Notes under the pieces: model-generated | Told to the model about the DNA's origin: nothing | The model's database searches: none | The model's input: the letters and a program-made list of their open reading frames with translations, nothing else | DNA from: Bacillota bacterium | Lineage (GTDB): Bacteria > Bacillota > Limnochordia > DTU087 | Length of the DNA: 36,301 nucleotides | Reading direction: 5' to 3' | NCBI GenBank assembly: GCA_012839845.1 | Contig: DUMM01000036.1 | Span: 1-36,301 of the forward strand | Program-made: the position numbers and the translations under genes | Shown: positions 18,155-35,126 of the stretch, one piece after another | How positions within the stretch are numbered: the first letter of the stretch is position 1 | How the letters are laid out: each line of letters begins with the position of its first letter

Positions 18155-18697
18155 ATGAAGCGCTGCAAATTGATGGGCTTTTGCCTGCTGTTAGTGCTGT
18201 TGTTGGGTGTCTGTTCTGCGGAAGCTGAGGTGTTGGATAGAGCTGAAATTCAGGTTATTGTGACCATCCCCCAGGTGCTGTGGGTACGTGTTAATGCCAC
18301 CCAGTTGGAGTTTACTGAAGAAGACTTTGATACAACCAAGAATGCTGTGATGCTGGACGAGGGCATCTTAGCAACCAAGACGGAAGCTGTGCAGATTGAA
18401 GTTGCCGGAAATGTGCCCCATGCCTTGTATATTTCGGCAGCCGACGAAGCCTTTCAAGGGCCCAACGGCAGCAGCCTGCCCAGTTCCCAAATGACTTTTA
18501 GGTTATATGGTCCTACCTGGCAGGGCAGTTGGCATACCTTGAGAACCAGGGGTGCCACTCAAGACCCCGTTTTTGCCAGCAACACGCCGGGGAAGAACAT
18601 CCTCACTATGGATGTTCAGCTTTTGGCAACATGGTTGGACACTCCTGGTACCTATGAAGGAACTATCGTCTACACTGTGGCACCGTTGGCGGGCTGA
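18155..18697 (+). CDS. Secreted beta-rich subunit-like protein 1
   Basis: This is a 180-residue exported protein. Residues 1-24 are a signal peptide (KRCK start, leucine core, SAEA). The mature start RAEIQVIVTIPQVLWVRV shares its pattern with the two other small secreted proteins of the cluster, and the end TYEGTIVYTVAP has the Y-x-G-x-hydrophobic strand typical of pilin-like and spore-coat-U-like beta sandwiches. The ATG at 18155 follows AAGGGG by 7 nt; an upstream start at 18086 would bury the signal peptide behind 23 extra residues. The bases GGGGTGCCCC just before the start may weaken ribosome access. I do not recognise a named family. A structural subunit or adhesin is the best inference. 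Confidence 0.8.
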   Translation: MKRCKLMGFCLLLVLLLGVCSAEAEVLDRAEIQVIVTIPQVLWVRVNATQLEFTEEDFDTTKNAVMLDEGILATKTEAVQIEVAGNVPHALYISAADEAFQGPNGSSLPSSQMTFRLYGPTWQGSWHTLRTRGATQDPVFASNTPGKNILTMDVQLLATWLDTPGTYEGTIVYTVAPLAG

Positions 18698-18735
18698 AGA
18701 ACGTAGATTGGGTCTAATATTTGGGGGGTAGAACA

Positions 18736-19926
18736 GTGGGAAAATGTAAATTGCAGTTAAGATTGTGTTTGTGGGCTCTAGTGCTGGTGTTCTTTGTTGG
18801 CGGAGTCGGCTTTGCCCAGGAAGAAGAGGAACCGCTGGTCAACATCATGTTTTTTGAAACAGATCTTAGAGAAGCTCTTAACGAGATCTCGCTGCAGACC
18901 GGCGTGACGATTATCGCCGATCAGACGGTAAGCGGTCAGGTAACGGCAGACCTGCAAGACGTGCCCTTGGAAAAAGCTCTGCGGATGATCCTCTTTACCG
19001 GAGGCCTTTCCTTCCGCAAGGTGGATGACTATTACATAGTTGGGTTACCTGACCCCCGGAATACTACCTTCAGCGCATTGGTGGAGACCGAGATTGTCCG
19101 CCTGAGTAACGTTACAGTCCAGGAAGTCATGGATCAGCTTCCCACCTTCTTGACTTCTTACGTACGTGGAACGCCTGACCGGAATCTTCTCACCATCTCA
19201 GCACCGCCGTTGGAGCTGGAGAGGATCAAGGAACTGATCCGGCAGATTGATACGCCCCGGAGGACTGTAGAAATACAGGTTCTGGTAACTGAGGTGTCCT
19301 CGCAAGCCTTGAAGGAGTTGGGGAACAGTCTGTTACAGTTCTCCGCGGAGAAAGGTCAGAGCGTCGGTGATAGCTGGTACGGAAGAGTTGAGTACGACGG
19401 CAACGTTCTGACTCTGAGTACCAACATTTGGGGGGAGCTAGTGACGGAGCTAAAAATGCTGGAACAGAAGCAGGAAGCCAGAATCCACGCTGACCCCCGG
19501 GTGATAGTTGCCGACCGGGAAACCGCTGAGCTGTTTGTCGGCGACCTGCAGATCCTGCCCATCTCCTCGGAGAACGAAGAGACTACCCGGATTGAACGGG
19601 TCGAGGTGGGAGTAGTCCTTGAGGTTACCCCGACTATTTTGCCGGATGACCAGATACTCCTTAAGCTCGCACCGGAGGTCAGCCATTTCGTCAGTGAAGC
19701 AAGGCCAGATCTGGTGGTGAAGCGGAACTCGGTATCCACTACGGTGCGGCTGGCCAACGGGCAAACGGCGGTGTTGGCAGGCATGACTATGCAGGATTTT
19801 TACGACTTGTCTCGGAAAGTGCCCATTCTGGGGGATATACCCATCATCCGCTGGCTGTTTAGAAATGATGTCAAGCGGGAGGGCGATCGGGAAGTCCTGA
19901 TATTCGTCACCCCTGTCATCCAATAG
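18736..19926 (+). CDS. Compact secretin (outer-membrane export pore)
   Basis: This 396-residue protein has a signal peptide (1-28, GFAQ), an N0/STN-like domain (about 34-105, with FFETDLREALNEIS and LEKALRMIL), one N1-type secretin_N domain (about 115-175) and a secretin core (177-396). The core shows VGVVLEVTPTI, NSVSTTVRLANGQTAVLAG, VPILGDIPIIRWLFR and the terminal VLIFVTPVI, all family hallmarks. Secretins form multimeric outer-membrane pores for type II, III and IV-pilus systems, so a second membrane is implied. It is shorter than PilQ or GspD (600-700 residues). No ATPase, inner-membrane platform or pilin genes are near. The GTG at 18736 follows GGGGGG by 7 nt. It lies 39 bp after subunit gene 1 and 15 bp before the next gene, so it is in an operon. 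Confidence 0.92.
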   Translation: MGKCKLQLRLCLWALVLVFFVGGVGFAQEEEEPLVNIMFFETDLREALNEISLQTGVTIIADQTVSGQVTADLQDVPLEKALRMILFTGGLSFRKVDDYYIVGLPDPRNTTFSALVETEIVRLSNVTVQEVMDQLPTFLTSYVRGTPDRNLLTISAPPLELERIKELIRQIDTPRRTVEIQVLVTEVSSQALKELGNSLLQFSAEKGQSVGDSWYGRVEYDGNVLTLSTNIWGELVTELKMLEQKQEARIHADPRVIVADRETAELFVGDLQILPISSENEETTRIERVEVGVVLEVTPTILPDDQILLKLAPEVSHFVSEARPDLVVKRNSVSTTVRLANGQTAVLAGMTMQDFYDLSRKVPILGDIPIIRWLFRNDVKREGDREVLIFVTPVIQ

Positions 19927-19940
19927 GGGAGGTAACATAA

Positions 19941-21266
19941 GTGGGCAAACGACAAAGGATATGCTCGCTCCTCGTCTTGGTACTGTTCTGCGGTGCTGCT
20001 TTAGCAGGCGGCACCATTGGCGTTTTCGCAGCAGAAGCAGATATTGATGACGTACCCAAGCAGCTCACGGCTCCAGGCTGGGAGGTGCTTCCAGCTCCCA
20101 AGGAGGAGCCGGTGATTGTATATGAGCTCAACCTCGTTGAGCTGCGCTATGAAATGGGGCGCATCGTGGAGGTCAGTGTCGAGTATTCTAAAGGGGAAGA
20201 CCTCGAGGGCGGGTATGCGATTATCACCGATGAGGCCGTTTTGAGGCTGATAGGCGATTTCCCGGCTTCCTTTACCGTCAGGTCGTCCGGGGAAAAAACC
20301 AGTTCGGCGGCGGCTTTTGAATATAATGCTTGGTTGGTTACCATGGGCAATCAGCCTGTATCCATTGAGGTTATGGAAGATACCATCGTAGCCGCTGAGG
20401 AGGAAGAGGAGACTGAATACGGGCTGAGGATTACCTTAACGCCGGAGTATTACGGAGACCCCGACAGTGGAGTTCTGACGGAGATCGATCTGGAGTACGC
20501 AAGCCGCGAGAATGCAGTAGGCAATGTCCGCCTTACGGACTGGCTTTCTGCAGAGAAAGACCGTCCCCTGGCCGTGATAGTCCGCGACCTCAACTACACC
20601 AAGGAACAAGCACGGAAGTATTTCGCCCTCTATGCCTCCGCAGAGGTTATGAGCCCCAGAGCTTTAGCTGATCAAGGGCCGGTAGTCTCCATTGGTTCTA
20701 TTAAGGGGTTACAGGAGCTGATGGCCCGGCCTCAGAGCCAAGCAGGCACCAATGCGGAGCTTCGGATGGCCGTTGGTGTAAAAGACGCCAAGGTCGGCCC
20801 AATGGGCAAGTTACTGCTGGAGAGGGAGCAGTATAAGCTGAGTGCTGAGGCTGAAGGCTTCCCAGGCGGTGTGTCTTACAGAATAGGCGGAACGTATTAC
20901 CTCTATGAAGAGTTGGGGCTTGCAGCTCATGTAGACAAGAGGGCTGGCAGTGAGGCTTTAATTCGGTGCGGAGTTGCCGACCAGGTGCAGTGGGGTGATG
21001 TAGAAGTAGAAGCCGTGTGGCTTCCCATTGCCTATGCCCCTGATGAGGGCCGCTTTATCGGGTCAGTGTGGCTGCAGTGCAGCGCTGCCCTGGATGTGAA
21101 CAGATGGCGGTTCCAGTACGACTTCACCTACGACAGCGGAGAGATTGGACACGAGCTGGCGGTGATGAGAAAAGCCAGTGCCGATTGTGCTGTAAGCCTG
21201 GAGTGCGCTCAGCTTCCGACCAAGGAATCGCTGTATGCTCTCGGCCTGGTGTTCTGGCTGGAGTGA
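19941..21266 (+). CDS. Secreted protein with barrel-like C-terminal part, unknown
   Basis: This 441-residue exported protein has a signal peptide ending near residue 32 (GVFAA). The first half (about 40-230) is beta-rich with repeated ExxYG/ELNLVEL-type strands and an acidic linker EEEEETE near 153-159. The second half (about 270-441) consists of alternating hydrophobic strands joined by short turns and ends LGLVFWLE, as many outer-membrane barrels end in an aromatic-rich strand. The GTG start lies 9 nt after GGGGAGG, 15 bp behind the secretin gene. I recognise no family. A partner of the secretin in the outer membrane is a reasonable inference, not a demonstrated one. Confidence 0.75.
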   Translation: MGKRQRICSLLVLVLFCGAALAGGTIGVFAAEADIDDVPKQLTAPGWEVLPAPKEEPVIVYELNLVELRYEMGRIVEVSVEYSKGEDLEGGYAIITDEAVLRLIGDFPASFTVRSSGEKTSSAAAFEYNAWLVTMGNQPVSIEVMEDTIVAAEEEEETEYGLRITLTPEYYGDPDSGVLTEIDLEYASRENAVGNVRLTDWLSAEKDRPLAVIVRDLNYTKEQARKYFALYASAEVMSPRALADQGPVVSIGSIKGLQELMARPQSQAGTNAELRMAVGVKDAKVGPMGKLLLEREQYKLSAEAEGFPGGVSYRIGGTYYLYEELGLAAHVDKRAGSEALIRCGVADQVQWGDVEVEAVWLPIAYAPDEGRFIGSVWLQCSAALDVNRWRFQYDFTYDSGEIGHELAVMRKASADCAVSLECAQLPTKESLYALGLVFWLE

Positions 21267-21306
21267 GCAGCGTGAGGCTGTAAGTTGGTTTAGGAGGGGC
21301 TGATCG

Positions 21307-22509
21307 ATGATATCAGACTCACCTCGAATTAGGGTGAAGGTTTGGTTTTTGGGACCCTTTGCCCTGGAGGTTAATGCGAAAGAAGTACCAGTATCTCAGT
21401 GGAAATCTAAAAAAGCTCTTAACCTCTTTCGATATCTAGCTTCTCGCCGGGGAGAGAAGGTCCCTAAGGATGTCTTAAATGAGTTACTTTGGCCGGATAC
21501 CGATCTAGATGCCTCTACGGAGCAGAACTTACATACATGTGTGTATTTTGTCCGGCGGATTATTGACCCCGATCTGAAGCGCTATGCCAAGTCAAATCTC
21601 CTTACCTGTTCAGGAGGCCTTTACTGCCTGGAAAGAACAGATGAATGCTGGGTAGATACTGAAGAGTTCGAGGAGCTCTACACCGAGGGCAGGAAGCTAG
21701 AGAAAATCGATCCGGCAGCAGCCATCGCTTCATTTCGCGGAAGTCTAGAGCTGTATCGAGGAGATTTCTTGGTTGAGGAGCCGTATCTTGACTGGACTAT
21801 CGAACTGCGAGAATACTACCGAGAAATGTTTATAGACGGTACGCTGCGTCTGGCTGAGCTTTTGGCCTCATACGCCGACGATCTAGGGGAGGCAATCAGG
21901 ATCTGCCGGCAGGGGCTGAGAAAGGACCCGTATCGGGAGGACCTTTACCATGCGCTGATAGGATACCTCATCGATGCCGGTCGCTATACTGAAGCGGCCA
22001 CCCAGTACACCGCGTATGCCAAGATGATGCATGATGAATTCGGTTTAGATCCCAGCCGCGAAGCCCGGGCTCTTTTGGAGAGAATCCACAGCGGGGGCCG
22101 GATAGACGCTCATGAGCTGGCTAAGTCCGTGCCCACCCGTTCCGGGGGAGCTTATGTCGGCGACAGGGCCTTCTTTGAGGCGGTTTGTCACCTTGAAGCT
22201 CGCCGGCGGGATAGGAGTCAAGAACCTGTTACTCTGATGATGATATCGGTCTACGGCTCAAAATCCATGGAGAAGTCCGCTGACGTTACCGCCTCCGTTT
22301 TGCGGAAAGGCGATGTGGTGTGTCAGTGGGATCAAGACAAACTGGGCATCTGCCTCTGGGGTACAGATGAAACCGGAGCCAAGGTGGTCGGCCGGCGGGT
22401 AAAGCGGGAGCTGGAGAAGACCAGCGGTGTACGAGTGGGAATCACTTATGAAGTTCTGAAAAGCGGCAGTGAACGGCCGATCCTGGGGGCCCTGGAAAGG
22501 GCTTTCTAG
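21307..22509 (+). CDS. SARP/BTAD regulator with degenerate GGDEF domain
   Basis: This is a 400-residue cytoplasmic protein of three parts. Residues 8-110 form an OmpR-like winged helix in SARP form (VWFLGPFALEVN, SKKALNLFRYLASRRGE, LWPD, HTCVYFVRR). Residues 112-262 are a helical BTAD/TPR-like domain ending EFGLDPSREARALLERI. Residues 283-400 resemble the second half of a GGDEF domain: LRKGDVVCQWDQDKLGICL aligns with RGDDVVCRYGGDEFAILM of the protein at 4298. The catalytic motif is lost (DQDKL), but the I-site RxxD (R333, D336) is kept at the correct distance, as in non-catalytic c-di-GMP receptors. It probably activates the surrounding cluster in response to c-di-GMP. It lies inside the cluster, 40 bp after the previous gene. 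Confidence 0.88.
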   Translation: MISDSPRIRVKVWFLGPFALEVNAKEVPVSQWKSKKALNLFRYLASRRGEKVPKDVLNELLWPDTDLDASTEQNLHTCVYFVRRIIDPDLKRYAKSNLLTCSGGLYCLERTDECWVDTEEFEELYTEGRKLEKIDPAAAIASFRGSLELYRGDFLVEEPYLDWTIELREYYREMFIDGTLRLAELLASYADDLGEAIRICRQGLRKDPYREDLYHALIGYLIDAGRYTEAATQYTAYAKMMHDEFGLDPSREARALLERIHSGGRIDAHELAKSVPTRSGGAYVGDRAFFEAVCHLEARRRDRSQEPVTLMMISVYGSKSMEKSADVTASVLRKGDVVCQWDQDKLGICLWGTDETGAKVVGRRVKRELEKTSGVRVGITYEVLKSGSERPILGALERAF

Positions 22510-22534
22510 GAATCTTTTTTAGAGAAATTCCTAG
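22506..22534 (+). repeat. Inverted repeat across the stop of the SARP-type gene
   Basis: CTAGGAAT (22506-22513) and ATTCCTAG (22527-22534) form an 8-bp stem whose loop contains six T residues. It covers the stop codon and may be a processing or weak termination site. No T-run follows the stem. Confidence 0.35.
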
Positions 22535-22619
22535 GCCTGGGTTTGAGCCGTTTTATAGATAAGTTTTAGTCCTCGCGTTTACAATGAGACCAGGTTACGG
22601 TATAGGGGGGCAGTTATCG

Positions 22620-22832
22620 ATGACACCTTCCACCTTTGTAGTACGGATCATCCGATGCGCCAACGGAACCTGGCAGGGACGGATCGGCCACACCCAAACC
22701 GGTGAAATGAGACCATTTCAAAGCTGCCTGGAAATGATAAAGATAATGGATGAATTTGTCGGGACCGGCAGGCAAGTGGAAAGGGAGACAAGGCGTGATG
22801 CAGACCAATGGTCGACGAGCTTTAGGGGTTAG
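22620..22832 (+). CDS. Small cytoplasmic protein, function unknown
   Basis: This 70-residue protein has no signal peptide. It has the pattern FVVRIIRCANGTWQGRI...GEMRPFQSCLEMIKIMDEFV, which I recall from short hypothetical proteins of Firmicutes that share a 'WQG ... PFRSxLELIKLID' core. Their function is not known to me. The ATG at 22620 has GGGGGGC 9 nt upstream. Its last 35 bp overlap the start of the next, secreted protein gene in another frame, implying translational coupling. It sits just after the SARP-type regulator and could be an accessory regulatory factor of the cluster. Confidence 0.6.
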   Translation: MTPSTFVVRIIRCANGTWQGRIGHTQTGEMRPFQSCLEMIKIMDEFVGTGRQVERETRRDADQWSTSFRG

Positions 22833-23727
22833 AAATATCTCAATAGTATTTGCTCTGGTGTTGTTTATGGCACTGAGCGGTATGGCAGAGGGCCGAAGCG
22901 CAGTAAAGGCCAGCAAGAGCTCGGTCAGCATCCGTATCGATACCAGACCCGCCATAGACGAGGAATATCTAGATGGCGGCACTCTAACCTTGGTCTGGGA
23001 GCCAGTGAACGTTGACTTGTCGGATAAGGAATCTGAACCTGTTGAGGAGAGAAAGAACATATGGTATCAAGCAGCTGGTGATCTGTACTTTGGGGATAAA
23101 AAAATGCCGGCGGAATACATTGAGGTCTCAACGCCTTATTCGGGTGGTTTTCAGCCCCTCAACCGGCCTGTGCTTTTCCTAAAGGCCGATGAGGAAAGAC
23201 CCGTGCAGGTCAAGTTCCGCATCCGGCGGGAAGCCTGGCAGCACGCCGGCAAATTCACCGGTTATTTGAGCTCAGACTCCCCCCTTGCAAAAGCCATTGA
23301 GTTGATTGTCGAGGTGAAGGAGTATACGGCTCTTGTAATGGATTCAGGTTCAGGTGAAAGCAGCACGGTTGTTATCAATGCTGACCGCGGTCCGGGAACT
23401 TACAAAGCAGAACAAAAGATCTCCGTCAGAGCTATTACAAATACCGGAGGCTCTAACCTAGTAGTTTCGTCCACAGGGTTGAGGTTTATCAGCAATGAGG
23501 ATAAGACTAAGACTGGGTGGGACGCAGACTCGGTGCCCACAATCGAACCCAGTGCTATTTCGCTCAAGAAGAGCGGAGAAAAGCAGAAGTACAATTTGGC
23601 TAATCAGCTGGTGTTTCACTGTCCTAACGGGGTGACAGAATATACTTTCGAAGTCGAGGTAACAACGGAGCTCAAGCACATAGCCGGCCTCTATAAAGGA
23701 AACATCCATTTTACGCTGGCCAACTAG
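22798..23727 (+). CDS. Secreted two-part beta-rich protein
   Basis: This 309-residue exported protein has a signal peptide at about residues 1-32 (basic start, VFALVLFMALSG). Two beta-rich parts follow. Part one (about 40-175) ends GKFTGYLSSDSP...IELIVEV; part two (about 178-309) ends GLYKGNIHFTLAN. Both finish in the '(Y/F)xG' strand pattern of the small subunit proteins, so this may be a fused or tip-like relative. The middle holds AITNTGGSNLVV, an Ig-like strand. The ATG at 22798 overlaps the end of the preceding small gene by 35 bp; GGGAG lies 10 nt upstream and AAGG 4 nt upstream. A GTG one codon earlier is also possible. No family recognised. Confidence 0.72.
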   Translation: MQTNGRRALGVRNISIVFALVLFMALSGMAEGRSAVKASKSSVSIRIDTRPAIDEEYLDGGTLTLVWEPVNVDLSDKESEPVEERKNIWYQAAGDLYFGDKKMPAEYIEVSTPYSGGFQPLNRPVLFLKADEERPVQVKFRIRREAWQHAGKFTGYLSSDSPLAKAIELIVEVKEYTALVMDSGSGESSTVVINADRGPGTYKAEQKISVRAITNTGGSNLVVSSTGLRFISNEDKTKTGWDADSVPTIEPSAISLKKSGEKQKYNLANQLVFHCPNGVTEYTFEVEVTTELKHIAGLYKGNIHFTLAN

Positions 23728-23760
23728 ACAGTGACGGTGATGAGTTAATCGATGTTGCTT

Positions 23761-23867
23761 TCCTCATTGGAGGCGATGAGCCGCTGCCCATATGTGGTCA
23801 CCTTACGGCGGCGGTTGAGCCAGTGGTGAAACCGGCCAATGGGATAAGACCAGAAATCCAATGAGGA
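23761..23867 (+). ncRNA. Three-way-junction leader RNA that can mask a ribosome site
   Basis: P1: TCCTCATTGGA (23761-23771) pairs perfectly with TCCAATGAGGA (23857-23867), and two further T-G pairs reach 23869, covering the GGAGG of the next gene. P2: CCGCTGCC (23781-23788) with GGCGGCGG (23807-23814). P3: TTG/GCC (23815-23821, one bulged A) with GGC/CAA (23834-23839), capped by GGT-GAA-ACC. P2 and P3 are directly adjacent and could stack. Junction strands are GGCGATGAG and a 17-nt stretch at 23840-23856. It matches no riboswitch class that I know. The pairings are visible; the switching role is inferred. Confidence 0.5.
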
Positions 23868-23876
23868 GGAGATTTT

Positions 23877-24401
23877 ATGCGGAAAACATGGGGGATTATC
23901 GCCTTATTTGCGTTGATTCTGGGAGCTTTATGCGGGGGTGTGCCGGCGACCGCTTCATCCGAGGGAGCACCGCCCATAGAACAGACAGTTGAGCTCCAAG
24001 TCACAGTTGAGAAATGGGCCAAGATGAGCGCTCTTGAGAGTATGGAGCTTGACCTTGCGCAGCCGGGGACCCGCAGAGAAACGTCTCAAAAAATCACTGT
24101 TGCCACCAATACAAAGGTACGAGTCACTGTGTCTGATCCCACGCTATCTCTAATTGAGGAAGACGCAGCTGCGCTAGGGTTCAAAGCTGCCGATGACTTG
24201 CCGCTTAAGTATGGTGTAGGGTTTAGAGGTCCAATTACTTCCAGCATGAACGGCGTGAAGGAATATGAAGTAGAGGCCGGCACGGAAGACACCAGAGAGT
24301 TGGTGTTTTGGGCAGAGTGGCTCGACAGCGACAACTGGTACCGCCTGGTGGCGGGGAAATATAAGGGCAGCGTGACCGTTACGGTTGCCGCAATCAACTG
24401 A
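23877..24401 (+). CDS. Secreted beta-rich subunit-like protein 2
   Basis: This 174-residue exported protein has a signal peptide at about 1-26 (GGVPATAS). The mature start TVELQVTVEKWAKMSALESMELDL repeats the strand pattern of subunits 1 and 3, and the C-terminus KYKGSVTVTVAAIN carries the same Y-x-G strand. The middle (TVATNTKVRVTVSD) matches the subunit 3 part 'RVQSNADWALTV', so the three are probably distant paralogues, as expected for major and minor components of one surface structure. The ATG has GGAGGAG 6 nt upstream, and that site can be paired into the outer stem of the leader RNA just before it. There is no lipobox and no cysteine in the mature protein. Confidence 0.8.
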   Translation: MRKTWGIIALFALILGALCGGVPATASSEGAPPIEQTVELQVTVEKWAKMSALESMELDLAQPGTRRETSQKITVATNTKVRVTVSDPTLSLIEEDAAALGFKAADDLPLKYGVGFRGPITSSMNGVKEYEVEAGTEDTRELVFWAEWLDSDNWYRLVAGKYKGSVTVTVAAIN

Positions 24402-24457
24402 CCTAGTGTTACTAAGTTATCCCTATTGAGGGCAATGCATGTGAAGAGGGTGATTAT

Positions 24458-25987
24458 GTGAAGCCTACCGTACGGGTGATACTGCTTGGCCTGACGGCAG
24501 CTGTGATCGTAGCTGCTGTGTGCCAAGTGACTTTGGCCTTCGGGGTGCGCCCCTTGGTAATCGACATTGACTGCAAACCCGGAGACACTAGGGATTTTGA
24601 GATCATCCTGAATCCGGGCAATACCGAAGAGACAGTGCAGCTTTCATTGTATCAGCCGGTTCAGATGCTGAGTGGGAATCTGGCTTACCAAGAACCGGTT
24701 CCGGAGACGTTTCCCGCTGTTAACTGGGTGCGCCTCGACTCCTACGAGGTCAGAGTCTATCCCGGTGAAGATACATACGTAAGGGGTACCATCAGGGTTC
24801 CCTTCGATGCCGGGGGCTCCCATACGGTAGTGCTCATGGCTGAGCCGAGGGTGGCACCTGATCAACCGGGTATAACCCTGATCGTCAGGTACGCCATTCG
24901 GATCAATATTCGGGTAGACCGGCCGGGGCTGAGGACCTTTGCTGAACTAAGGGAATTCGACTTGGTTCCAGGTCCGGAAGGCGAACCGGTGATCCGGGCG
25001 CTGGTTGCCAATCCGTCAGCTTGGGACTATCTGGTGTCAGGAGAGGTTACCGTCCGGGATTCTGAGCGGCGCCTGGTGGAAAGAATTCAGCTGAACAGCG
25101 AGGCTGGTGCCAGGGCCAATTTAACCGAGACCCGGATCTATCCCGGCAGTGAAGTAGAATATACCGGTACTGTTACCAAGAGGCTGGAGCCTGGAAATTA
25201 CACTCTGAGATTGTTCCTCCGTTACGGGGAACGGGGGCAGATCATCCAGACGAAAGAGATCACCGTGGTTGAGGGGCAGTTCAAGTTCCCTGGCGCCGAA
25301 GAGTTGGGCGCTTTCAGTGTGGAGCCTGAGACTATCTCTATGGAAATCAGGGCAGGGCAGCAGCGCAGTCAGGTACTGCAGCTGACCAGTGAGATTACAG
25401 AGCCTGCGCTCATCCTAATTGGCGGTAGAGACGTCGAAGCTGACTATCCCTACTCGCCCTTAAGCTGGATCGAAGTGCGGGGACCTTCTGAGATTAACCT
25501 TCCCGGACGGGGCAGAGGCAGGATAGTGCTGACTGTGGCTGTGCCTAAAGATGCGGTCGATGCCTCTTACAATGGTTATCTCTTGCTGGGCGCCTTCAAC
25601 CCCGATACCGGCGAGCCGCTCAGTCAAAGGGAGATCCCCATTACAGTCTTGGTCGGAACTGAGCACGTCTACGCCGTAGAGATTAAGAGCTTACAGGCTG
25701 AAAAAGTCGAAGAAGGGCATATGCTGTATCTGGATCTTGCCAATACCGGGAACGTAGACCTGATGCCGCGGGCCGATCTTGTTATCACAACGGAAGCTGG
25801 GGAATTCGTGGAAAGGGCCGTGTTGGTCCTAGGGGAAGGCGCCGAAAAGGTAATGCCGCTGCAGAGGCAGCAGCTGGAGGGTCTTGCCCAAGGCCTTGAA
25901 CCCGGCTCGTATCAGGTACGGGTTACTATCTCCGATGGAAATAGGGAGCTTCTCGTCAGCGACATGGCGTTAGAAGTTGCGGATTAG
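24458..25987 (+). CDS. Secreted Ig-like protein with internal duplication, chaperone/DUF916-like
   Basis: This 509-residue exported protein has a signal peptide at about 1-28. Four beta-rich segments follow in an A-B-A'-B' order: A 29-155 (VRPLVIDIDCKPG, VYPGEDTYVRGTIRVP), B 160-272 (LEPGNYTLRLFL), A' 285-400 (VEPETISMEIRAG, LPGRGRGRIVLTVAVP) and B' 403-509 (LEPGSYQVRVTI). The A segments, with 'PG...R...L..P..A' strands, recall periplasmic pilus chaperones and the DUF916 peptidoglycan-binding domain of WxL-system proteins, though I see this only by pattern. The GTG at 24458 has AAGAGGGTG about 8 nt upstream. It could hold or anchor the small subunits at the cell envelope. A terminator and the tandem riboswitch region follow. 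Confidence 0.78.
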   Translation: MKPTVRVILLGLTAAVIVAAVCQVTLAFGVRPLVIDIDCKPGDTRDFEIILNPGNTEETVQLSLYQPVQMLSGNLAYQEPVPETFPAVNWVRLDSYEVRVYPGEDTYVRGTIRVPFDAGGSHTVVLMAEPRVAPDQPGITLIVRYAIRINIRVDRPGLRTFAELREFDLVPGPEGEPVIRALVANPSAWDYLVSGEVTVRDSERRLVERIQLNSEAGARANLTETRIYPGSEVEYTGTVTKRLEPGNYTLRLFLRYGERGQIIQTKEITVVEGQFKFPGAEELGAFSVEPETISMEIRAGQQRSQVLQLTSEITEPALILIGGRDVEADYPYSPLSWIEVRGPSEINLPGRGRGRIVLTVAVPKDAVDASYNGYLLLGAFNPDTGEPLSQREIPITVLVGTEHVYAVEIKSLQAEKVEEGHMLYLDLANTGNVDLMPRADLVITTEAGEFVERAVLVLGEGAEKVMPLQRQQLEGLAQGLEPGSYQVRVTISDGNRELLVSDMALEVAD

Positions 25988-26017
25988 AGGAAATAAATGC
26001 TAAGTTTGTGTAAATAT

Positions 26018-26039
26018 TCCGCTGCGCAGCAGGATTTTT
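26018..26039 (+). terminator. Terminator of the export operon
   Basis: TCC-GCT (26018-26023) pairs with AGC-A-GGA (26028-26034) around a GCGC loop with one bulged A, directly followed by TTTTT. It closes the transcript after the Ig-like protein gene. Confidence 0.55.
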
Positions 26040-26054
26040 CCAGGCCGTGTAGAA

Positions 26055-26063
26055 TGGTATAAG
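26055..26063 (+). promoter_or_regulatory. Candidate extended -10 promoter of the riboswitch transcript
   Basis: TGGTATAAG has the TGn extension and a good -10 element 83 nt before the first aptamer. The -35 region is poor. A second TATAAA at 26113-26118 is an alternative. Confidence 0.35.
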
Positions 26064-26145
26064 CGCAACATGAAGTTGAGCATGAGAAAGTTTCAGCAGC
26101 GTAGATTGCGGGTATAAAGTAACTGGAGAAATAGAATAACGTAAA

Positions 26146-26240
26146 CCTCTACCGATAAAGGCAAACCCTCCGAAAGGTGGGGACGCAAAGTCCACGGGCC
26201 TAAAGCATTGAGCTATGGCGGCCGGACTGCCGAAGAGAGG
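26146..26240 (+). ncRNA. Cyclic di-GMP-I riboswitch (GEMM), first of two
   Basis: The conserved GEMM blocks are present in order: GGCAAACC, a GAAA tetraloop hairpin (CTCC-GAAA-GGTG), GGGGACGCAAAG, CCACGGGCCTAAAG, the receptor-side CTATGGCGGCCGG and ACTGCCG. P1 is CCTCT (26146-26150) with AGAGG (26236-26240). The base equivalent to G20 of the Vibrio Vc2 aptamer is G, which favours c-di-GMP over cGAMP. An intrinsic terminator starts 19 nt after P1, so control of transcription is likely. Confidence 0.93.
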
Positions 26241-26258
26241 AACGGGATGATCTTTTAA

Positions 26259-26295
26259 GGAGCCTGTCTCTCTCTCGGTGAGCAGGCTCCTTTTT
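26259..26295 (+). terminator. Riboswitch-associated intrinsic terminator
   Basis: GGAGCCTG (26259-26266) pairs with CAGGCTCC (26283-26290), followed by TTTTT. The loop holds CTCTCT, which is complementary to the AGAGAG of the first aptamer's P1 3' strand; that pairing could compete with P1 or the terminator. Confidence 0.88.
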
Positions 26296-26343
26296 CAATC
26301 TGGTAAAAGGAGCGAGTTGCAGCAGAAGACAAAGGCTCATAGA

Positions 26344-26441
26344 TTTCTCCAGAAAGGGTAAACCCGACCGAAAGACGGGGGCACAAAGCCACGGGCCTAA
26401 GAGGGACAAACCTTATGGCGGCCGGGCTGCCAAAGGAGGAA
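26344..26441 (+). ncRNA. Cyclic di-GMP-I riboswitch (GEMM), second of two
   Basis: The blocks GGGTAAACC, CGAAAG, CACAAAGCCACGGGCCTAAG, CTTATGGCGGCCGG and GCTGCC follow the GEMM pattern. P1 joins TTTCTCC (26344-26350) to GGAGGAA (26435-26441) with one G-U pair. That 3' strand is the ribosome binding site of the next gene, whose ATG is at 26447, so ligand binding should hide it and switch translation off. The G20-equivalent base is G. Confidence 0.92.
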
Positions 26442-26446
26442 TACAA

Positions 26447-26917
26447 ATGAAAAGATTCTCGGTGCTGATTGTGCTGACAGCGTTGCTGGTGGTTGCTGCA
26501 GCCGGGGCCGTGCAGGCCAAGGAGTTGGCAAGGGCTGAGCTCAAGGTTCGGATAGAGATTCCAGTCATGCAGCGGCTGACGGTACTTGAACCTGCCGATA
26601 TATATTTCCAATATCCAGGCGATGGGCAAGCAGTGGAACTTAAGAACGTAGGACGGATTAGGGTTCAGAGCAATGCCGACTGGGCATTAACAGTAGGTGC
26701 CGTCACTGACGGAAATGTGAAGGTAGCGGTAAGGCCTGCGGGTGACAGGACAGCTCGGTGGCAGTATGTCGACGGAACAGGCGGTGTATTTACCGGCCCA
26801 TACGGCGCCCATGACATCAGCTGGGATGTGAGAATCGAGGCCAATAGGTTTGGCAACGCCGGCAATCAGAATCAGCAGGGTAGGGTGCAGCTCTACTTTA
26901 CCTTAGGGCGTCTGTGA
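26447..26917 (+). CDS. Secreted beta-rich subunit-like protein 3, c-di-GMP riboswitch target
   Basis: This 156-residue exported protein has a signal peptide at 1-24 (VQA before KELARAEL). The mature start RAELKVRIEIPVMQRLTVLEP is close in pattern to subunit 1 (RAEIQVIVTIPQVLWVRV), and the end GRVQLYFTLGRL mirrors its last strand. It has no cysteine and no anchor. It is the only gene between the tandem riboswitches and the next terminator, so it forms its own c-di-GMP-controlled unit. Its ribosome site AAAGGAGG lies inside the P1 stem of the second aptamer. An adhesive or structural subunit lowered when c-di-GMP is high is the simplest reading, but the sign of control should be measured. Confidence 0.83.
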   Translation: MKRFSVLIVLTALLVVAAAGAVQAKELARAELKVRIEIPVMQRLTVLEPADIYFQYPGDGQAVELKNVGRIRVQSNADWALTVGAVTDGNVKVAVRPAGDRTARWQYVDGTGGVFTGPYGAHDISWDVRIEANRFGNAGNQNQQGRVQLYFTLGRL

Positions 26918-27225: not shown

Positions 27226-28989
27226 TTGGATCTTCAACAACCTGTGGTTATGGAGGATGAAATCGATCTAAGAGAGATTTTGTTGGCTTTATGGAGAGGT
27301 AAGTGGATTATTTTAGGTCTAATGATTGCTGCTGCTGCAGTGGCCGCTATAGGAGGTCGTATACTTCTAACACCTAGTTATGAAGCAGTGGCAGCCTTGT
27401 TGATTGTGCCGCCTACATATCAAAGTGCTATCGAACCCGAGCCGCTGCCGTTGGAAACTTACAGGGCTTTGGCTCTGACTCCCTCGATAGCTAGCCAGGT
27501 GATAGAACGGTTGCAGCTGACAGATGAGGGGAATAAGCCACTCGGGGCAAGTGACGTTCTTAAGGCAGTTCAAGTAGATGTGTCCGCGGGGCCAGACTCG
27601 TCGGGTGGTAGAGCCGGAATGCTTAACATAAAGGTGTCTTGGAGTGACCCGGTTATAGCCAGAGATATCGCCAATGCCTGGGCAGATGTGTTCATGAGGG
27701 ATACAGCCTGGATCCGAAAGAGTGAGTCTGACGAAATAGCAAGAGTAATTCTCAACCAGTTCGTTGCTACTGAAGAGGCACTCAATGAGGCTGAAGACCA
27801 GCTTCTGAGGTTCCGCATCGCGAATAGCATTCCCCGAGCCAGTCAACAAGTGGAACTCCTTAGTTCGCATTTGGGAGAACGCCACAGATATATGCTTAAG
27901 CTTCAGGCTGACTTGGAGATAAAGCGAAACAGGTTAGATACCCTCAGCGGCCAGTTGTCCGCCCTAGAACATGAGGGGCAGTGGTTAGGGCTGCTTACCC
28001 ATGATATCGACAAACTCAGCGATAATGGCAATGCTGCAAGGAAGCGAATCATTGATGCAGTGCGGCAGCTTGTCGCTGCGAAGAAGGCCTTGAGAGATTT
28101 TGAAGATAATGCAGAGATTGCCCTTCTGGAACAGGAATTAGCATCGGAACTAGAGGCTCTAAGTTCATACAAAAAAGGACTGACTGTCTTGGTTGCTCAG
28201 GTCCCACAGCTTGAGGCTCGAGCTCGCGCTTTGACTGTGTCTTTGGAGAAACATGATAAGACTATGTTTCTTTCCCGCAGCTTGACAACAGATGCTATGT
28301 GGACAGCCATAAGTAGCGGCAGTGAAGCGTTGGAACAGCTTCAAGACTTCCGTCTCGTAGATGAAGTTCCTAATCCGACCTATCAGGAGTTGGAAAAGTC
28401 TTTAGCAAACACGGAGACGGAGCTAGCTAGTCTCCCAGAGAAAATCCAGGGTTATGAGAAACTGATCAATGCCTCTGTACAGCGCATTGTCGACTTGAAT
28501 CAAACTTTGAGAGAGCTATATTCTCAGAGGGAGGCTTTGGAAGAAGAAGTTGCCGTTACTGCCGATGTATATGATTCTCTAAAAGCCCAATACCTATCTT
28601 TAAAGAAAGAGTGGTTGGAGCTGGCTAATGAGGTCTCACTCTTGGAAGCTGAACTAAAGCTAGCTTCGGAGCAAGTAAGAAGAAATGAGGAAGAATTTGT
28701 AAATGCTGAAGGTTCGCTGCTGCAATTGACACTTGAAGAAGAACAACTGACACGCAATGTCGCGTCTTTGAAACAAACATATAAGGTGTTGGCGGAGCAA
28801 GCGGAGAATGCCCGCCTTGCGGAAATGCAGGCCACTGGTGATGTCCGGTTTGTCTCGCCGGCCGTAGCTCCCCGGACACCGTCTGGCCCTAACCATAAGC
28901 TCAATATAGTAATCGCTGCGCTGTTGGGTGGGATGATTGGACTGGGTGTAGTATTAGTGAAGAACATGCTGATGGAGCCGGCTAACTAG
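27226..28989 (+). CDS. Wzz/GumC-type polysaccharide chain-length or export co-polymerase
   Basis: This 587-residue inner-membrane protein has the polysaccharide co-polymerase layout. A short cytoplasmic start (DEIDLREILLALWRGKW) leads to a first membrane segment at about 27-48, then a periplasmic part with SYEAVAALLIVPP, and extensive coiled coil (about 180-530). The proline-rich APRTPSGPN segment sits just before the second membrane helix (about 558-580), typical of the family. It has no C-terminal tyrosine kinase. It would help set polymer length or gate export of a surface polysaccharide. The TTG start has AAGGAGG 7 nt upstream. No polymerase or glycosyltransferase gene is adjacent; the nearby c-di-GMP elements suggest a biofilm-related role by context only. 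Confidence 0.88.
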   Translation: MDLQQPVVMEDEIDLREILLALWRGKWIILGLMIAAAAVAAIGGRILLTPSYEAVAALLIVPPTYQSAIEPEPLPLETYRALALTPSIASQVIERLQLTDEGNKPLGASDVLKAVQVDVSAGPDSSGGRAGMLNIKVSWSDPVIARDIANAWADVFMRDTAWIRKSESDEIARVILNQFVATEEALNEAEDQLLRFRIANSIPRASQQVELLSSHLGERHRYMLKLQADLEIKRNRLDTLSGQLSALEHEGQWLGLLTHDIDKLSDNGNAARKRIIDAVRQLVAAKKALRDFEDNAEIALLEQELASELEALSSYKKGLTVLVAQVPQLEARARALTVSLEKHDKTMFLSRSLTTDAMWTAISSGSEALEQLQDFRLVDEVPNPTYQELEKSLANTETELASLPEKIQGYEKLINASVQRIVDLNQTLRELYSQREALEEEVAVTADVYDSLKAQYLSLKKEWLELANEVSLLEAELKLASEQVRRNEEEFVNAEGSLLQLTLEEEQLTRNVASLKQTYKVLAEQAENARLAEMQATGDVRFVSPAVAPRTPSGPNHKLNIVIAALLGGMIGLGVVLVKNMLMEPAN

Positions 28990-29623: not shown

Positions 29624-30898
29624 TTGAAGAAGTGGATAGCTGGAATCGCAATTGTTGTTATCGTGATAGCAGTTGGAGGACTGCTCTTGAGTCGGCAGTC
29701 GGGGACAAAACCGCCCGAGGTTGACGCAGTACAGACGGCTGCCGAAGTGCGGCGGCAGTCGGTCAGCGTTGCTGCGGCTGTCCCCAGGAGAATGCAGGAA
29801 CGGATATCGCTCCACGGTATTTTCAGCCCTTGGGCGCAGGTGAATGTTGTCCCCAAGGTACCCGGGAAGGTAGCAGAAGTCCCGGTTGAGGTAGGGCAGA
29901 GGGTAAGAGCAGGAGATGTCTTAATCAGGCTGGAGACCGATGAGCTTGCGCTGCAGCTCAAACAGGCGGAGGCAGCGCTGGCTGCTGCTCGGGCAACACT
30001 GGCCAAGGTGGAGGCCGGCGCGCGACCCGAGGAAATTGAACAGGCGGAGGCCGCCCTGAAGCAGGCGCAGGCAGGATATGAGAACGCCCGATTGACCTAT
30101 GAGCGGGCAGCTAAGCTCCATGAAGCCGGAGTCATGACGGGTCAGGAATGGGATGCGGTGAAGGCGCAATATGAAGTGGCAAAAGCCCAGCTGCTGACAG
30201 CAGAAAAGACTTTAGAGCTTGTGCGCAAAGGTGCGAGGGAGGAAGACCTGATCAGTGCTAGAGCCGGAGTTGCCCAAGCGGAGGCAGCAGTAGCCCTTGC
30301 TAAGCTGAGTCTGGACAATGCAGTGATCAAGGCTCCCATATCCGGTGTGGTCAACCAGGTTAATGTCCAGATAGGAGATATGGCTGGCGCCGGCATGCCA
30401 GTGGTTCACCTTGTAGACATTGATAAAGTCAAGCTCAATCTCCAGGTCAGCGAGCGTGAAGTTGTCTTGCTGAGACAGGGCCAGGAAGTATTGGTCACTC
30501 TGGATGTCCAGCCGGATTTGGAACTTCGGGGCCGCATCAGCAGTGTAGCACCTGCGGCAAGTCAGACTGGACTCTTCTCTGCCGCCGTCGAGCTGAATAA
30601 CCCTGATGGGAGAGTAAAGCCGGGCATGTACGGCACAGCCCACGTAATCGTCAGGGAAGTTGAAGAAGTTCTGGCAGTACCCGAACGGGCGGTGTTTACC
30701 GCTGACGGCAGATCGGCAGTGTACGTGGTTAAGGACGATACTGCCCATCTAGTACCAGTGGAGGTGGGAATGCGGTCCGATGGGTTTGTGGAGATCAAGT
30801 CGGGTCTTGCGGCCGGAGATGAGGTGATTGTTCGCGGTAGAGAATTTGTCACCGATCAAGCATTGGTCCGGGTGGTGGAACGGGGGATTTCGCAATGA
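29624..30898 (+). CDS. RND efflux periplasmic adaptor (membrane fusion protein)
   Basis: This 424-residue protein joins the inner-membrane pump to a TolC channel. One N-terminal membrane helix (about 3-24) is followed by the first lipoyl half-motif VPKVPGKVAEVPVEVGQRV, a long coiled-coil hairpin (about 110-220) with repeated AEAALAAA and EQAEAALKQAQAGY heptads, and the second lipoyl half IKAPISGVVNQVNVQIGD. A beta-barrel and membrane-proximal domain complete it. The TTG start has GGAGGAG 5 nt upstream. Its last 4 bp overlap the pump gene. Control is probably by the TetR-type operator just upstream. The substrates are unknown. Confidence 0.93.
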   Translation: MKKWIAGIAIVVIVIAVGGLLLSRQSGTKPPEVDAVQTAAEVRRQSVSVAAAVPRRMQERISLHGIFSPWAQVNVVPKVPGKVAEVPVEVGQRVRAGDVLIRLETDELALQLKQAEAALAAARATLAKVEAGARPEEIEQAEAALKQAQAGYENARLTYERAAKLHEAGVMTGQEWDAVKAQYEVAKAQLLTAEKTLELVRKGAREEDLISARAGVAQAEAAVALAKLSLDNAVIKAPISGVVNQVNVQIGDMAGAGMPVVHLVDIDKVKLNLQVSEREVVLLRQGQEVLVTLDVQPDLELRGRISSVAPAASQTGLFSAAVELNNPDGRVKPGMYGTAHVIVREVEEVLAVPERAVFTADGRSAVYVVKDDTAHLVPVEVGMRSDGFVEIKSGLAAGDEVIVRGREFVTDQALVRVVERGISQ

Positions 30899-33800
30899 AG
30901 CTAGCAGCACTTGCGGTCAAACGCCCAGTTACCAGCCTAATGATGATGGCGATCATAGTATTGCTGGGATGGATAAGTTTATCTCGGCTGCCCATTGATC
31001 TGTTCCCGGACATTGAAGTGCCGGTTATTGGTGTACTGACTACCTATCCGGATGCAGGCCCCTTTGAGGTAGAAAACCTGGTCACCCGGCCTATGGAGGC
31101 GGCCCTGGCTACCGTTAATAATGTCAAGAACATCACCTCCTTTTCATCCCGGGGCTCTTCTACGGTTATCGCTGAGTTTGACTGGGGCATCAATATGGAT
31201 TTCGCCTCTCTGGATGTCAGGGAAAAGGTAGACCAGGTGCGGGGTTATCTGCCCGATGAGGCTGGGGCACCGATCGTGATCAAATACGATCCCGGCGCCA
31301 TGCCCGTGATGCAGCTGGTGCTGAAAGGCAGTCGACCTGCCTATGAATTGAGATACATCGCCGAAGATACCGTAAAGAGCCGTTTAGAGCGGCTGGACGG
31401 CGTGGCCTCTGTGGATATAACCGGAGGGCAGGAACGGGAGATTCGCGTGGTGCTGCACCCGGGACTCTTGGCTGCCCACGGCATATCCATTGACACGGTG
31501 TCCCAAGCACTGCGGGCCGCCAGCCTTAACCTGCCCGCTGGGTCTATCCGGGACGGGGGCTTGGAATACACCCTGAGGACAGTGGGAGAGTTTGCAACAG
31601 TCGATGAGATCCGCTCAGTCAAGGTGCCTACCGCCGGGGGAGGCTTGGTGAACCTTTCAGACATTGGAGAAATAGTAGACGGCTACAAGGATGTTACCAC
31701 GATAAGCCGCCACAACGGCCAGCCCACCATTATGCTGTCCGTCCAAAAGGAAGCAGGCAGCAACACCGTGAGGGTAGCAGAGGCTGTTCGGAAAGCTGTT
31801 GAGGGGCTGAACCGAGAGCTGGGCGGGGACCTGTCTTTGGAAATCGCCATGGACTCATCGGTGTATATCCAGCAGGCCATCAAAGAAGTTGCCGGTAATG
31901 CTGTCACCGGTGCAGTGCTGGCTGTTGCTATACTGCTTCTTTTCCTGCGCAGCATCCGACCGACATTGGTAATCGGCGTTGCGATTCCCATTTCTATCCT
32001 GGCGGCCTTTGTGATGGTGTATTTCAGCAAAACCACGTTAAACTTGCTGTCTCTGGGCGGTCTTGCCCTGGGGGTCGGCATGTTGGTAGACAATTCCATA
32101 GTGGTCTTGGAGAGCATTTTCCGCCACCGGGAGCTGGGCAAAAAGGCGAGAGAAGCTGCCGTGATCGGAACTGAGGAAGTGGGCATGGCGGTAACGGCAT
32201 CGACTTTGACCACTATATCAGTCTTTGTCCCCATTGTCTTTGTCTCAGGTCTCACCGCCGAGATCTTTAGGGATCTGGCTCTGACCGTTACTTTTTCCCT
32301 CTTGGCCTCTCTCTTGGTGGCCGTGACCTTGGTGCCTATGCTGGCTTCCCAAGTACTGGGAAACAGCAGGTTAGATGCCAAAGACAGCCGCTTTACGCTG
32401 GTCAGGTGGATGTCCCAAATGAGCGACCGGATGCGTAAGGGATACAGCCGCTTGATCGCCTGGGCTCTTCGCCATCGGGGGGCAACCATAGGTATCGCCG
32501 CTGCTACCTTGGTCGTCAGTTTGCTGCTGGTTCCTCTTGTGGGGATGGAGTTTATGCCCAGCATGGATCAGGGGACTATCAGTATATCTGTCTCCATGCC
32601 CCGCGGTACGAGGCTAGATGATACCGATGCCATCGTTCGGGATATTGAAGATTTCCTTGCTGCCATCCCGGAAATCGACACAATCTCATCTACGCTTGGA
32701 TCCGGCGGAACAGACAGAGCCAGCATCTCTGTTCAGCTGGTTCCCATCGCCCAGCGGACTCGGCAGACAAGGGATATCGCGACCCTTATCCACGATTTTA
32801 CATCCCAAATCCCAGGAGCGGAGATCACTGTTTCCAGTGATACCCTTATTACCGGCGCTTTTGGTCAGGCCATCCAGGTGCGGCTCAGGGGAGATGACCT
32901 GGACATGCTGGAGCTGGTTTCCCAGGAATTGATCGGAGCCTTAAAGGAAATCGAGGGGACCCGGCAGTTTACCACCAGCTTGGATGAAACCAGCCCGGAG
33001 ATTCAGGTACAGATCAACCGGGATAGAGCAGCTGCCCAGGGCATTTCCGTTGCGCAAATTGCTTCCACTTTGCGGGCGGCGGTCAGCGGCACAACTGCTG
33101 CCAAGTTCCGCAGCGAAGGGAAAGAGATCGATGTGACTGTCTGCTTGGGCGAAGAATGGCGAGACAACCCTCAGGCTGTGGGTAATATACCCATTCCTAC
33201 CTTGAGGGGTACGCTGGTGCCGCTCAAAGATGTGGCCACTCTCCAGTACGGCACGAGCCCCATCCAGATTACTCGCAGCGGCCAAAGCCGCACGGTCACT
33301 GTCACCGGTGATGCAATTGGCCGTCCTCTCAATATGGTGATGGAGGATGTCCGCAAGGTGGTAGATAGTTTCCCCTTCCCGGAGGGAATTTCAGTCGAAT
33401 ACGGCGGTGAATACAGCCAGATGACGGAGTCGTTCGCTGACCTAGGTCAGGCCATGCTGCTTGGTATTCTTCTGGTCTATATGATCCTGGCATCCCAATT
33501 TGAGTCCCTGGTTCAGCCGTTTATCATCATGGTGACACTGCCACTTTCCATCGTGGGAGTGATCCTAGGGCTGCTGATCGGCGGCTGTACCTTCAATGTG
33601 GTCTCCTTTGTGGGAGCTATCATCTTGGTGGGTATCGTGGTGAACAACGCAATAGTCTTAATCGACTATATCAATCAGCTGCGGGCGCAGGGCATGGAGC
33701 GCAATGAAGCAGTTGTCACAGCGGGTGAAGTCAGGCTGAGGCCCATCCTGATGACGACCCTGACCACTGTTTTGGGTCTTGTGCCGCTGGCCCTGGCAAC

Positions 33801-33990
33801 TGGTGAAGGCAGCGAGATGGGCAGACCTCTGGCCTATACGGTTATGGGTGGTCTCACTACGTCCACCCTCCTTACCCTTATAGTGGTGCCTGTGGTTTAC
33901 ACCTTAGTCGACGGGCTTGGCAGAAGGATTGCTCGGCTTCTGGGAGGCAGCCGCAAAGGTGCCGCCAGTGGAGCCGAGGCGGTGCAGTAG
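30895..33990 (+). CDS. RND efflux pump, HAE1/AcrB type
   Basis: This 1031-residue inner-membrane proton-driven exporter has the full AcrB layout: RPVTSLMMMAIIVLLGW (first helix), LPIDLFPDIEVPV, two large periplasmic loops, and twelve membrane segments in two repeats. The proton-relay helix carries GVGMLVDNSIVVLE (about 395-410), so the second aspartate of AcrB's Asp-Asp pair is Asn here, a change seen in many non-proteobacterial members. The late helix LVGIVVNNAIVLIDYINQ has Asn where AcrB has Lys940. It overlaps the adaptor gene by 4 bp and is followed by two TolC genes, giving a complete tripartite exporter. Confidence 0.95.
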   Translation: MKLAALAVKRPVTSLMMMAIIVLLGWISLSRLPIDLFPDIEVPVIGVLTTYPDAGPFEVENLVTRPMEAALATVNNVKNITSFSSRGSSTVIAEFDWGINMDFASLDVREKVDQVRGYLPDEAGAPIVIKYDPGAMPVMQLVLKGSRPAYELRYIAEDTVKSRLERLDGVASVDITGGQEREIRVVLHPGLLAAHGISIDTVSQALRAASLNLPAGSIRDGGLEYTLRTVGEFATVDEIRSVKVPTAGGGLVNLSDIGEIVDGYKDVTTISRHNGQPTIMLSVQKEAGSNTVRVAEAVRKAVEGLNRELGGDLSLEIAMDSSVYIQQAIKEVAGNAVTGAVLAVAILLLFLRSIRPTLVIGVAIPISILAAFVMVYFSKTTLNLLSLGGLALGVGMLVDNSIVVLESIFRHRELGKKAREAAVIGTEEVGMAVTASTLTTISVFVPIVFVSGLTAEIFRDLALTVTFSLLASLLVAVTLVPMLASQVLGNSRLDAKDSRFTLVRWMSQMSDRMRKGYSRLIAWALRHRGATIGIAAATLVVSLLLVPLVGMEFMPSMDQGTISISVSMPRGTRLDDTDAIVRDIEDFLAAIPEIDTISSTLGSGGTDRASISVQLVPIAQRTRQTRDIATLIHDFTSQIPGAEITVSSDTLITGAFGQAIQVRLRGDDLDMLELVSQELIGALKEIEGTRQFTTSLDETSPEIQVQINRDRAAAQGISVAQIASTLRAAVSGTTAAKFRSEGKEIDVTVCLGEEWRDNPQAVGNIPIPTLRGTLVPLKDVATLQYGTSPIQITRSGQSRTVTVTGDAIGRPLNMVMEDVRKVVDSFPFPEGISVEYGGEYSQMTESFADLGQAMLLGILLVYMILASQFESLVQPFIIMVTLPLSIVGVILGLLIGGCTFNVVSFVGAIILVGIVVNNAIVLIDYINQLRAQGMERNEAVVTAGEVRLRPILMTTLTTVLGLVPLALATGEGSEMGRPLAYTVMGGLTTSTLLTLIVVPVVYTLVDGLGRRIARLLGGSRKGAASGAEAVQ

Positions 33991-34026
33991 ATGAGCAGTT
34001 GCTAACTAATACGCGGAGGGAAAGAA

Positions 34027-35112: not shown

Positions 35113-35126
35113 GGAGCTGCTGAATA

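Follow-up and report, generated by a model that had tools for sequence, protein, structure and literature searches.

The window, a 36,301-nucleotide stretch of DNA, corresponds to contig C13 in an assembly that totals 2.06 Mb over 135 contigs, with completeness listed as 100%. Its source belongs to the Limnochordia, a class of Bacillota with an outer membrane (PMC11456536); the relatives held in GTDB are MAGs labelled "Bacillota bacterium" and "DTU087". Positions 18155-26917 hold nine genes, all on the plus strand, and every gene named in an earlier interpretation made from the letters alone (the sequence-only reading) was found in the ORF list. From 5' to 3' these are s180, a compact secretin, a 441-aa secretin-like protein, a SARP regulator, a conserved ORF of 70-82 aa, p310, s174, P509 and s156 (Table 1). 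Pfam thresholds are exceeded by just two of the products, the secretin and the SARP regulator.

Table 1. Genes and RNA elements of the cluster, in order along the window.
Feature	Position	Strand	Description
s180	18155..18697	+	small secreted subunit-like protein; ORF with Sec-type signal peptide
Compact secretin	18721..19926	+	401 aa; N0, one N1 and core; proposed outer-membrane port
441-aa secretin-like protein	19941..21266	+	degenerate secretin core and C-terminal beta-rich extension
SARP/BTAD regulator with degenerate GGDEF domain	21307..22509	+	BTAD 2e-19; GGDEF 6.5e-5
Conserved small ORF, 70-82 aa	22620..22832	+	overlaps p310 start; 55-90% identity within genus and family
p310	22795..23727	+	secreted, two domains; C-terminal domain in the small-subunit superfamily; tip-like candidate
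Alternative pairing, class II leader	23759..23869	+	23759-23771 (TTTCCTCATTGGA) with 23857-23869 (TCCAATGAGGAGG, ribosome site)
c-di-GMP-II aptamer, before s174	23760..23846	+	Rfam 70 bits (gathering 53.5); predicted ON switch
s174	23877..24401	+	small secreted subunit-like protein; superfamily links by signal-free profiles
P509	24458..25987	+	509 aa; tandem two-Ig modules, WxLIP-like; proposed chaperone
c-di-GMP-I-GGC aptamer, first of tandem before s156	26151..26235	+	67.1 bits (gathering 59); ligand putative
Intrinsic terminator after first aptamer	26257..26296	+	AAGGAGCCTG...CAGGCTCCTTTTT; loop complementary to aptamer 3' strand
c-di-GMP-I aptamer, second of tandem	26347..26434	+	73.8 bits (gathering 35)
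s156	26447..26917	+	small secreted subunit-like protein; AlphaFold2 beta sandwich; profile match

P509 serves as the marker of the cluster in other genomes. As a single-sequence query it hits 43 of the 61 relatives; as an alignment it finds matches in 58 of the 73 genomes of the class and, at phylum scale, in 64/398 genomes at 1e-8. Loci were picked by P509 alone and their neighbors then annotated with profiles. The sequence-only reading had left room for these genes to stand apart in other Bacillota genomes; they were found together. Among the 63 loci whose P509 reaches 400 aa or more, small-subunit genes lie close by on the same strand in 61 and a secretin is present in 54 (52 by script annotation, plus intact frames in L142 and L143), and seven of the nine loci lacking a secretin are situated at contig ends. 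The SARP regulator occurs in many related loci. Because the order of the cluster recurs across the class and in 20 more loci in the phylum, it is not due to chance: the cluster is conserved.

The compact secretin proposed from the letters is a genuine one, matching Pfam Secretin (2e-39), one Secretin_N and one STN domain. It falls below the cut-offs of all named secretins, PilQ being the nearest and GspD also among the closest. The 441-aa protein that follows had been read as a barrel-like secreted protein, a description that may hold for its C-terminal extension, probably a barrel. The rest is a degenerate secretin core, an ancestry that had been overlooked. Compared with a clean secretin set (free of a barrel protein), the part of the 441-aa family before the C-terminal region aligns with the secretin core over 181 collinear columns (4.9e-6; controls: reversed sequences 0.58, C-terminal region 0.26). 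Probable counterparts in other families (L144, L145) score as secretins. Judged by this collinear core and by these counterparts, the 441-aa protein is a secretin paralogue that has degenerated and carries an extension at its C-terminus.

P509 had been recognized as a secreted protein in two parts, and these prove to be two copies of a two-Ig module; its WxLIP-like nature had gone unnoticed. The halves are homologous to each other (2e-24, against 0.27 for reversed sequences), and each matches (7e-29 and 1e-21) separate proteins of 226-391 aa that contain a single module. Such single-module relatives adjoin small subunits in loci without a secretin, one pair of this kind lying in the same genome as the cluster, and some P509 relatives stand beside other secreted proteins, again with no secretin there. 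The P509 profile matches the WxL-interacting protein of Enterococcus faecium (EfmWxLIP1, solved structure) at 5.9e-6, and the AlphaFold2 model of P509 (pLDDT 90.9) compares with the WxLIP structure at TM 0.57-0.59. Multi-Ig ciliary proteins, which gave the top Foldseek E-values for P509, were set aside since their TM is about 0.2. Among 35 members of the P509 family, Pfam WxLIP_PGBD is matched by eight with weak E-values only (best 9e-4) and PapD by none, all matches being WxLIP-like or generic Ig. A PDB search with the single-module relatives returned nothing useful. The C-terminal transmembrane helix of WxLIP is not found in P509, the model of which ends in beta strands. By profile and model, P509 consists of a WxLIP-homologous two-Ig module repeated in tandem. 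WxLIP binds WxL domains, and in published models a hairpin strand of WxLIP is inserted into WxL (PMC10599100). Because of this strand insertion and the homology, a chaperone-like role may be proposed for P509 by analogy.

Signal peptides may create false links in the iterative clustering of small proteins, so the comparisons were made on alignments stripped of them and checked against reversed sequences. The hazard is illustrated by one PDB search, in which antibody constructs appeared as a leader-peptide artefact. The signal peptides of the subunits read as Sec-type, with AxA-like ends. A profile of the small-protein group matches 120/758 ORFs at E < 1e-3 and no reversed sequence. With signal peptides removed, the C-terminal domain of p310 is matched by s180 (1e-10) and by s174 (2e-7), s174 matches the "GPYA" group (2e-6), this group matches p310 (6e-5), and s180 matches s156 (2e-4, 121 collinear columns), the best reversed control reaching 0.0025 over 14 columns. 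The remotest member, s156, is also matched by the signal-free profile A8 (3e-5). The duplication suspected in p310, described before as Ig-like, is confirmed, its two domains being related to each other (1.3e-5). On these profiles, s180, s174, s156 and the C-terminal domain of p310 form one beta-sandwich superfamily, to which s156 is loosely linked. The kinship of the three small proteins, which the sequence-only reading had staked its case upon, thus holds for s180 and s174 and weakly for s156.

The superfamily weakly resembles the subunits of chaperone-usher pili. The best PDB match of profile A8 is CsuE (0.0026, C-terminal pilin domain), followed by Caf1 sequences (~0.15-0.18), and its best matches are all chaperone-usher subunits; a PDB search with the s156 family gave nothing useful. 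AlphaFold2 models s156 as a beta sandwich (pLDDT 87), with no assigned strand in the mature N-terminus to about residue 41 (ELARAELKVRIEIPVM). Foldseek returns weak matches to this model (best E 1.7e-3, low TM), including FimG, FimA, type 1 pilus rods and archaeal fiber subunits. A simple test for an alternating N-terminal strand, a possible sign of donor-strand exchange, showed no enrichment in the subunits, and no WxL Pfam match was detected in subunit sets of 28 and 60 members. Orthologues of s156 occur in 20 of the 73 class genomes. Subunits differ widely among loci in number and in size (77-420 aa).

Two kinds of component for regulation by c-di-GMP had been read from the letters, and both are present. 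The SARP protein carries a BTAD domain and a GGDEF domain slightly under its cut-off (23.2 vs. 23.8 bits), and the window contains three c-di-GMP aptamers, called by Rfam scores at or over gathering. What had been missed is the linkage of the switches to subunit genes and their predicted opposite signs. Every one of the 38 aptamers assignable to a gene in the loci stands 5' of a gene for a small subunit (three others are cut by contig ends), a count biased toward s156 by the inclusion of some loci fetched with its profile. Most are placed 10-35 nt before the subunit start or in tandem with an aptamer so placed. The class II aptamer is kept before s174 orthologues and s156 orthologues stand mostly behind class I aptamers; in L123, L124 and L125, class I or I-GGC aptamers are kept before s156 orthologues with no secretin in view.

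In the class II leader, the 13-nt alternative pairing of 23759-23771 competes with the pairing of this strand to 23836-23841 inside the aptamer, and it is kept in relatives. In class II leaders the 5' strand has two potential partners, one inside the aptamer and the other the Shine-Dalgarno region (over 10-13 nt in close relatives), and in L045 both sides of the pairing are altered together. Because the 5' strand could alternate in this way, the class II riboswitch is predicted to turn s174 ON in response to c-di-GMP. Most class I leaders have a terminator after the distal aptamer. Cognate pairs of terminator loop and aptamer 3' strand beat swapped ones (13/20000 permutations, with segments chosen by hand and relatedness included). 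In addition, the ribosome site of s156 (26435-26442) has a potential pairing partner in 26343-26350, at the 5' end of the proximal aptamer. From these two pairings, the class I tandem is predicted to turn s156 OFF. The predicted signs agree with those of C. difficile, in which the class I riboswitches before surface-protein genes act as OFF switches and those of class II as ON switches (PMC6200980). Unlike in C. difficile, the two classes would here control related subunits encoded in a single cluster, and the messenger would thereby exchange one subunit for another.

The absence of an usher, a secretion ATPase and an inner-membrane platform, proposed for the cluster, extends to whole genomes. 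The outer-membrane usher (PF00577) is found in 0/73 class genomes, with the E. coli control detected, which rules out that an usher was merely missed locally. No type II/IV ATPase, platform or type IV pilin lies within the cluster. Elsewhere in the same genome, a Tad locus (Flp pilin, TadE/G, RcpC) accounts for a second secretin and for a TadZ-TadA-like ATPase, which is the sole GspE-family protein over cut-off. GspF-family matches are confined to the extremities of contigs C106 and C8, as would be expected if the assembly had broken a Tad locus in two. Further searches addressed ten relatives chosen for their faint or missing GspE-family signal. None of the ten has a GspF-family platform over cut-off and nine have a secretin, adjoining P509 or within about 2.3 kb of it in eight (by coordinates). 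Among these nine, which include two single-contig genomes (G026 and G032), no GspE-family ATPase exceeds the cut-off except for one partial, marginal match in G047 (26.6 bits vs. 24.9). Many other relatives do carry full-length ATPases of the GspE/PilB type. The verdict that the cluster is neither a chaperone-usher, a type II nor a type IV system is therefore sustained.

Each part belongs to a known superfamily, and the resemblances point in several directions. The cluster shares with the WxL/WxLIP (DUF916-DUF3324) clusters of monoderm Bacillota the WxLIP-homologous modules and their setting among genes for several small secreted proteins of beta-sandwich fold. It differs in lacking a WxL domain and the C-terminal membrane helix, in the duplication of the module, and in having a dedicated secretin, a secretin paralogue and an outer-membrane host. 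Archaic Csu-type chaperone-usher systems likewise dispense with an ATPase and combine a chaperone-like protein of Ig type with several beta-sandwich subunits and a tip-like protein of two domains; CsuE and Caf1 are weakly matched by the subunit profile (0.0026 and ~0.15). The cluster would work most like such a pathway, yet it stands outside the family: there is no usher in the class but a secretin instead, no PapD-family match, and no clear pilin family for the subunits. With PilQ and GspD of type IV pilus and type II secretion it has in common a secretin of N0, N1 and core. In contrast to these systems, there is only one N1, scores stay below named cut-offs, and ATPase, platform and type IV pilins are missing alongside, the first two also from several whole genomes by the cut-offs used. 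The combination is not a described system but a new organization, and no account of one like it was found in the literature (open-licence papers).

The components can be arranged into a self-contained, usher-less and ATPase-less chaperone-secretin system for export and assembly, with c-di-GMP driving subunit exchange, a reading for which the chances of being right or wrong appear evenly balanced. In this scheme, s180, s174 and s156, together with the tip-like p310, would reach the periplasm via Sec. There P509, through two WxLIP-like and broadly PapD-like Ig modules, would hold and stabilize them, probably by strand complementation. The subunits would leave through the dedicated secretin, aided by the 441-aa protein, and be displayed or polymerized on the surface as a fiber or adhesin, the product that the sequence-only reading had surmised. 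Filamentous envelope structures have been observed in cultured Limnochordia (PMC11456536) and may, as a conjecture, be candidates for the product of the cluster. Because neither an usher nor a GspE/PilB-type ATPase takes part, the driving force would likely be folding or strand exchange, as for chaperone-usher pili. The messenger would select the subunit: the class II switch would open s174, and the class I tandem would terminate transcription and hide the ribosome site of s156. Several observations speak against this scheme. The pilin match of the subunits is weak in both sequence and structure, s156 is loosely linked, the N-terminal strands show no donor-like enrichment, and P509 lacks a PapD match. 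A secretin ring is far wider than a single subunit, and no secretin is known to function without an inner-membrane partner. Some relatives of P509 also occur with other secreted proteins and no secretin.

Part of this evidence can be accommodated by export in which nothing polymerizes, the secretin releasing or displaying single beta-sandwich adhesins or matrix proteins with P509 as their periplasmic or surface carrier. The wide variation of the subunits, their faint likeness to pilins and the missing donor-strand signal all favor such a system; related paralogues next to a chaperone-like and a two-domain tip-like protein are instead the layout of a fiber operon, and the top PDB sequence matches are all fiber subunits. 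Export without a fiber is unlikely, if still deserving of weight. The homology of P509 to WxLIP also invites comparison with a WxL-like surface platform retained by a cell that has an outer membrane. P509 would then attach the small proteins to that membrane or to the cell wall, and the two secretin-related proteins would be structural anchors or play an unrelated role. Pairs of P509 relatives and small proteins without a secretin, including that of the same genome, would suit such a platform. It is nonetheless improbable, as secretin and P509 stay together across the phylum, P509 lacks the membrane helix of WxLIP and WxL domains were not detected among the small proteins. Least credible, and nearly refuted, is the idea of a type IV pilus or type II machine with its other genes elsewhere, to which the secretin would supply the outer-membrane component while the rest of the cluster would be accessory. 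The proximity to PilQ and GspD and the full-length ATPases of many relatives would favor it, but the sole ATPase and platform of the same genome can be ascribed to the Tad locus, where another secretin is encoded, and in nine secretin-bearing relatives neither a platform nor, one marginal case aside, an ATPase exceeds the cut-offs.

A more far-reaching version of the chaperone-secretin scheme holds that a PilQ-derived secretin replaces the usher, needs no ATPase and receives its subunits from a duplicated WxLIP-like chaperone, that the WxL/WxLIP clusters of monoderm Bacillota are the remnant of such a pathway after loss of the outer membrane, and that riboswitches of opposite sign exchange the subunits. 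As a whole it is possible, though rather doubtful. To our knowledge, every well-studied secretin is paired with an inner-membrane engine, and every diderm chaperone-subunit pilus pathway uses an usher. If true, the present scheme would provide a new route for chaperoned subunits across the outer membrane, as single-contig genomes with the cluster show neither engine nor usher. It would also suggest that the WxL and WxLIP proteins of lactobacilli, listeria and enterococci may derive from a system for export across an outer membrane. Such an ancestry bears on the transition from diderm to monoderm cells and renders that question testable. Finally, riboswitches of opposite sign on related subunits would constitute a compact c-di-GMP switch by which these bacteria exchange their surface proteins.

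Relatives of P509, the proposed chaperone of the cluster, also occur at loci that lack a secretin. A second P509-type locus, lacking a secretin, is found in the window's own genome (L099, on G000:C90), where a small subunit and a P509-like protein are accompanied by a protein with CarboxypepD_reg/SdrD_B domains. A gene trio, likewise without a secretin, is conserved across four loci and adjoins a gene that reads as S-adenosylmethionine synthetase. It comprises a small subunit, a P509 relative with only one two-Ig module, and a secreted protein of ~680 aa that has no Pfam match and could be another outer-membrane partner.

The arrangement of riboswitches varies among relatives. In one of them three c-di-GMP aptamers precede three successive subunit genes, in a different one class II and II-GAG variant aptamers stand in tandem, and at L048 a II-GAG aptamer occurs alone. 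In one family (L036/L121, L122 and L130), a SAM riboswitch lies beside orthologues of s156, the last gene of the cluster, and upstream of a methionine-type ABC transporter; at L122 and L130 the s156 orthologue is without a c-di-GMP aptamer. Within the window, the GGDEF and HD-type protein is a candidate enzyme for both making and breaking c-di-GMP.

Coordinates of features in the window and at related loci
Locus	Position	Strand	Feature
Window	4298-5941		GGDEF + HD-type (HD-GYP-like) protein, GGDEF motif intact
Window	27226-28989		Wzz/GNVR chain-length-determinant protein
Window	29624-36299	plus	Efflux operon: HlyD-like, AcrB-like, OEP, second OEP-like frame
L099	85-3214		Small subunit (182 aa), P509-like (391 aa), 456-aa protein
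L092	5452-8626		Trio: subunit (~155 aa), P509 relative (~230 aa), secreted protein
L093	5453-8657		Trio
L094	3887-7109		Trio
L098	1474-4693		Trio
L139	6316-7853		Three subunit genes, three aptamers
L138	10525-10703		Tandem aptamers
L048	12813-12900		II-GAG aptamer

After s156 comes a Wzz/GNVR protein, and Wzz-like proteins are also encoded near the cluster in relatives (L030, L031, L032 and L033). The second OEP-like frame of the efflux operon is incomplete, running past the window end. The OEP proteins of this operon are consistent with an outer-membrane-bearing cell.
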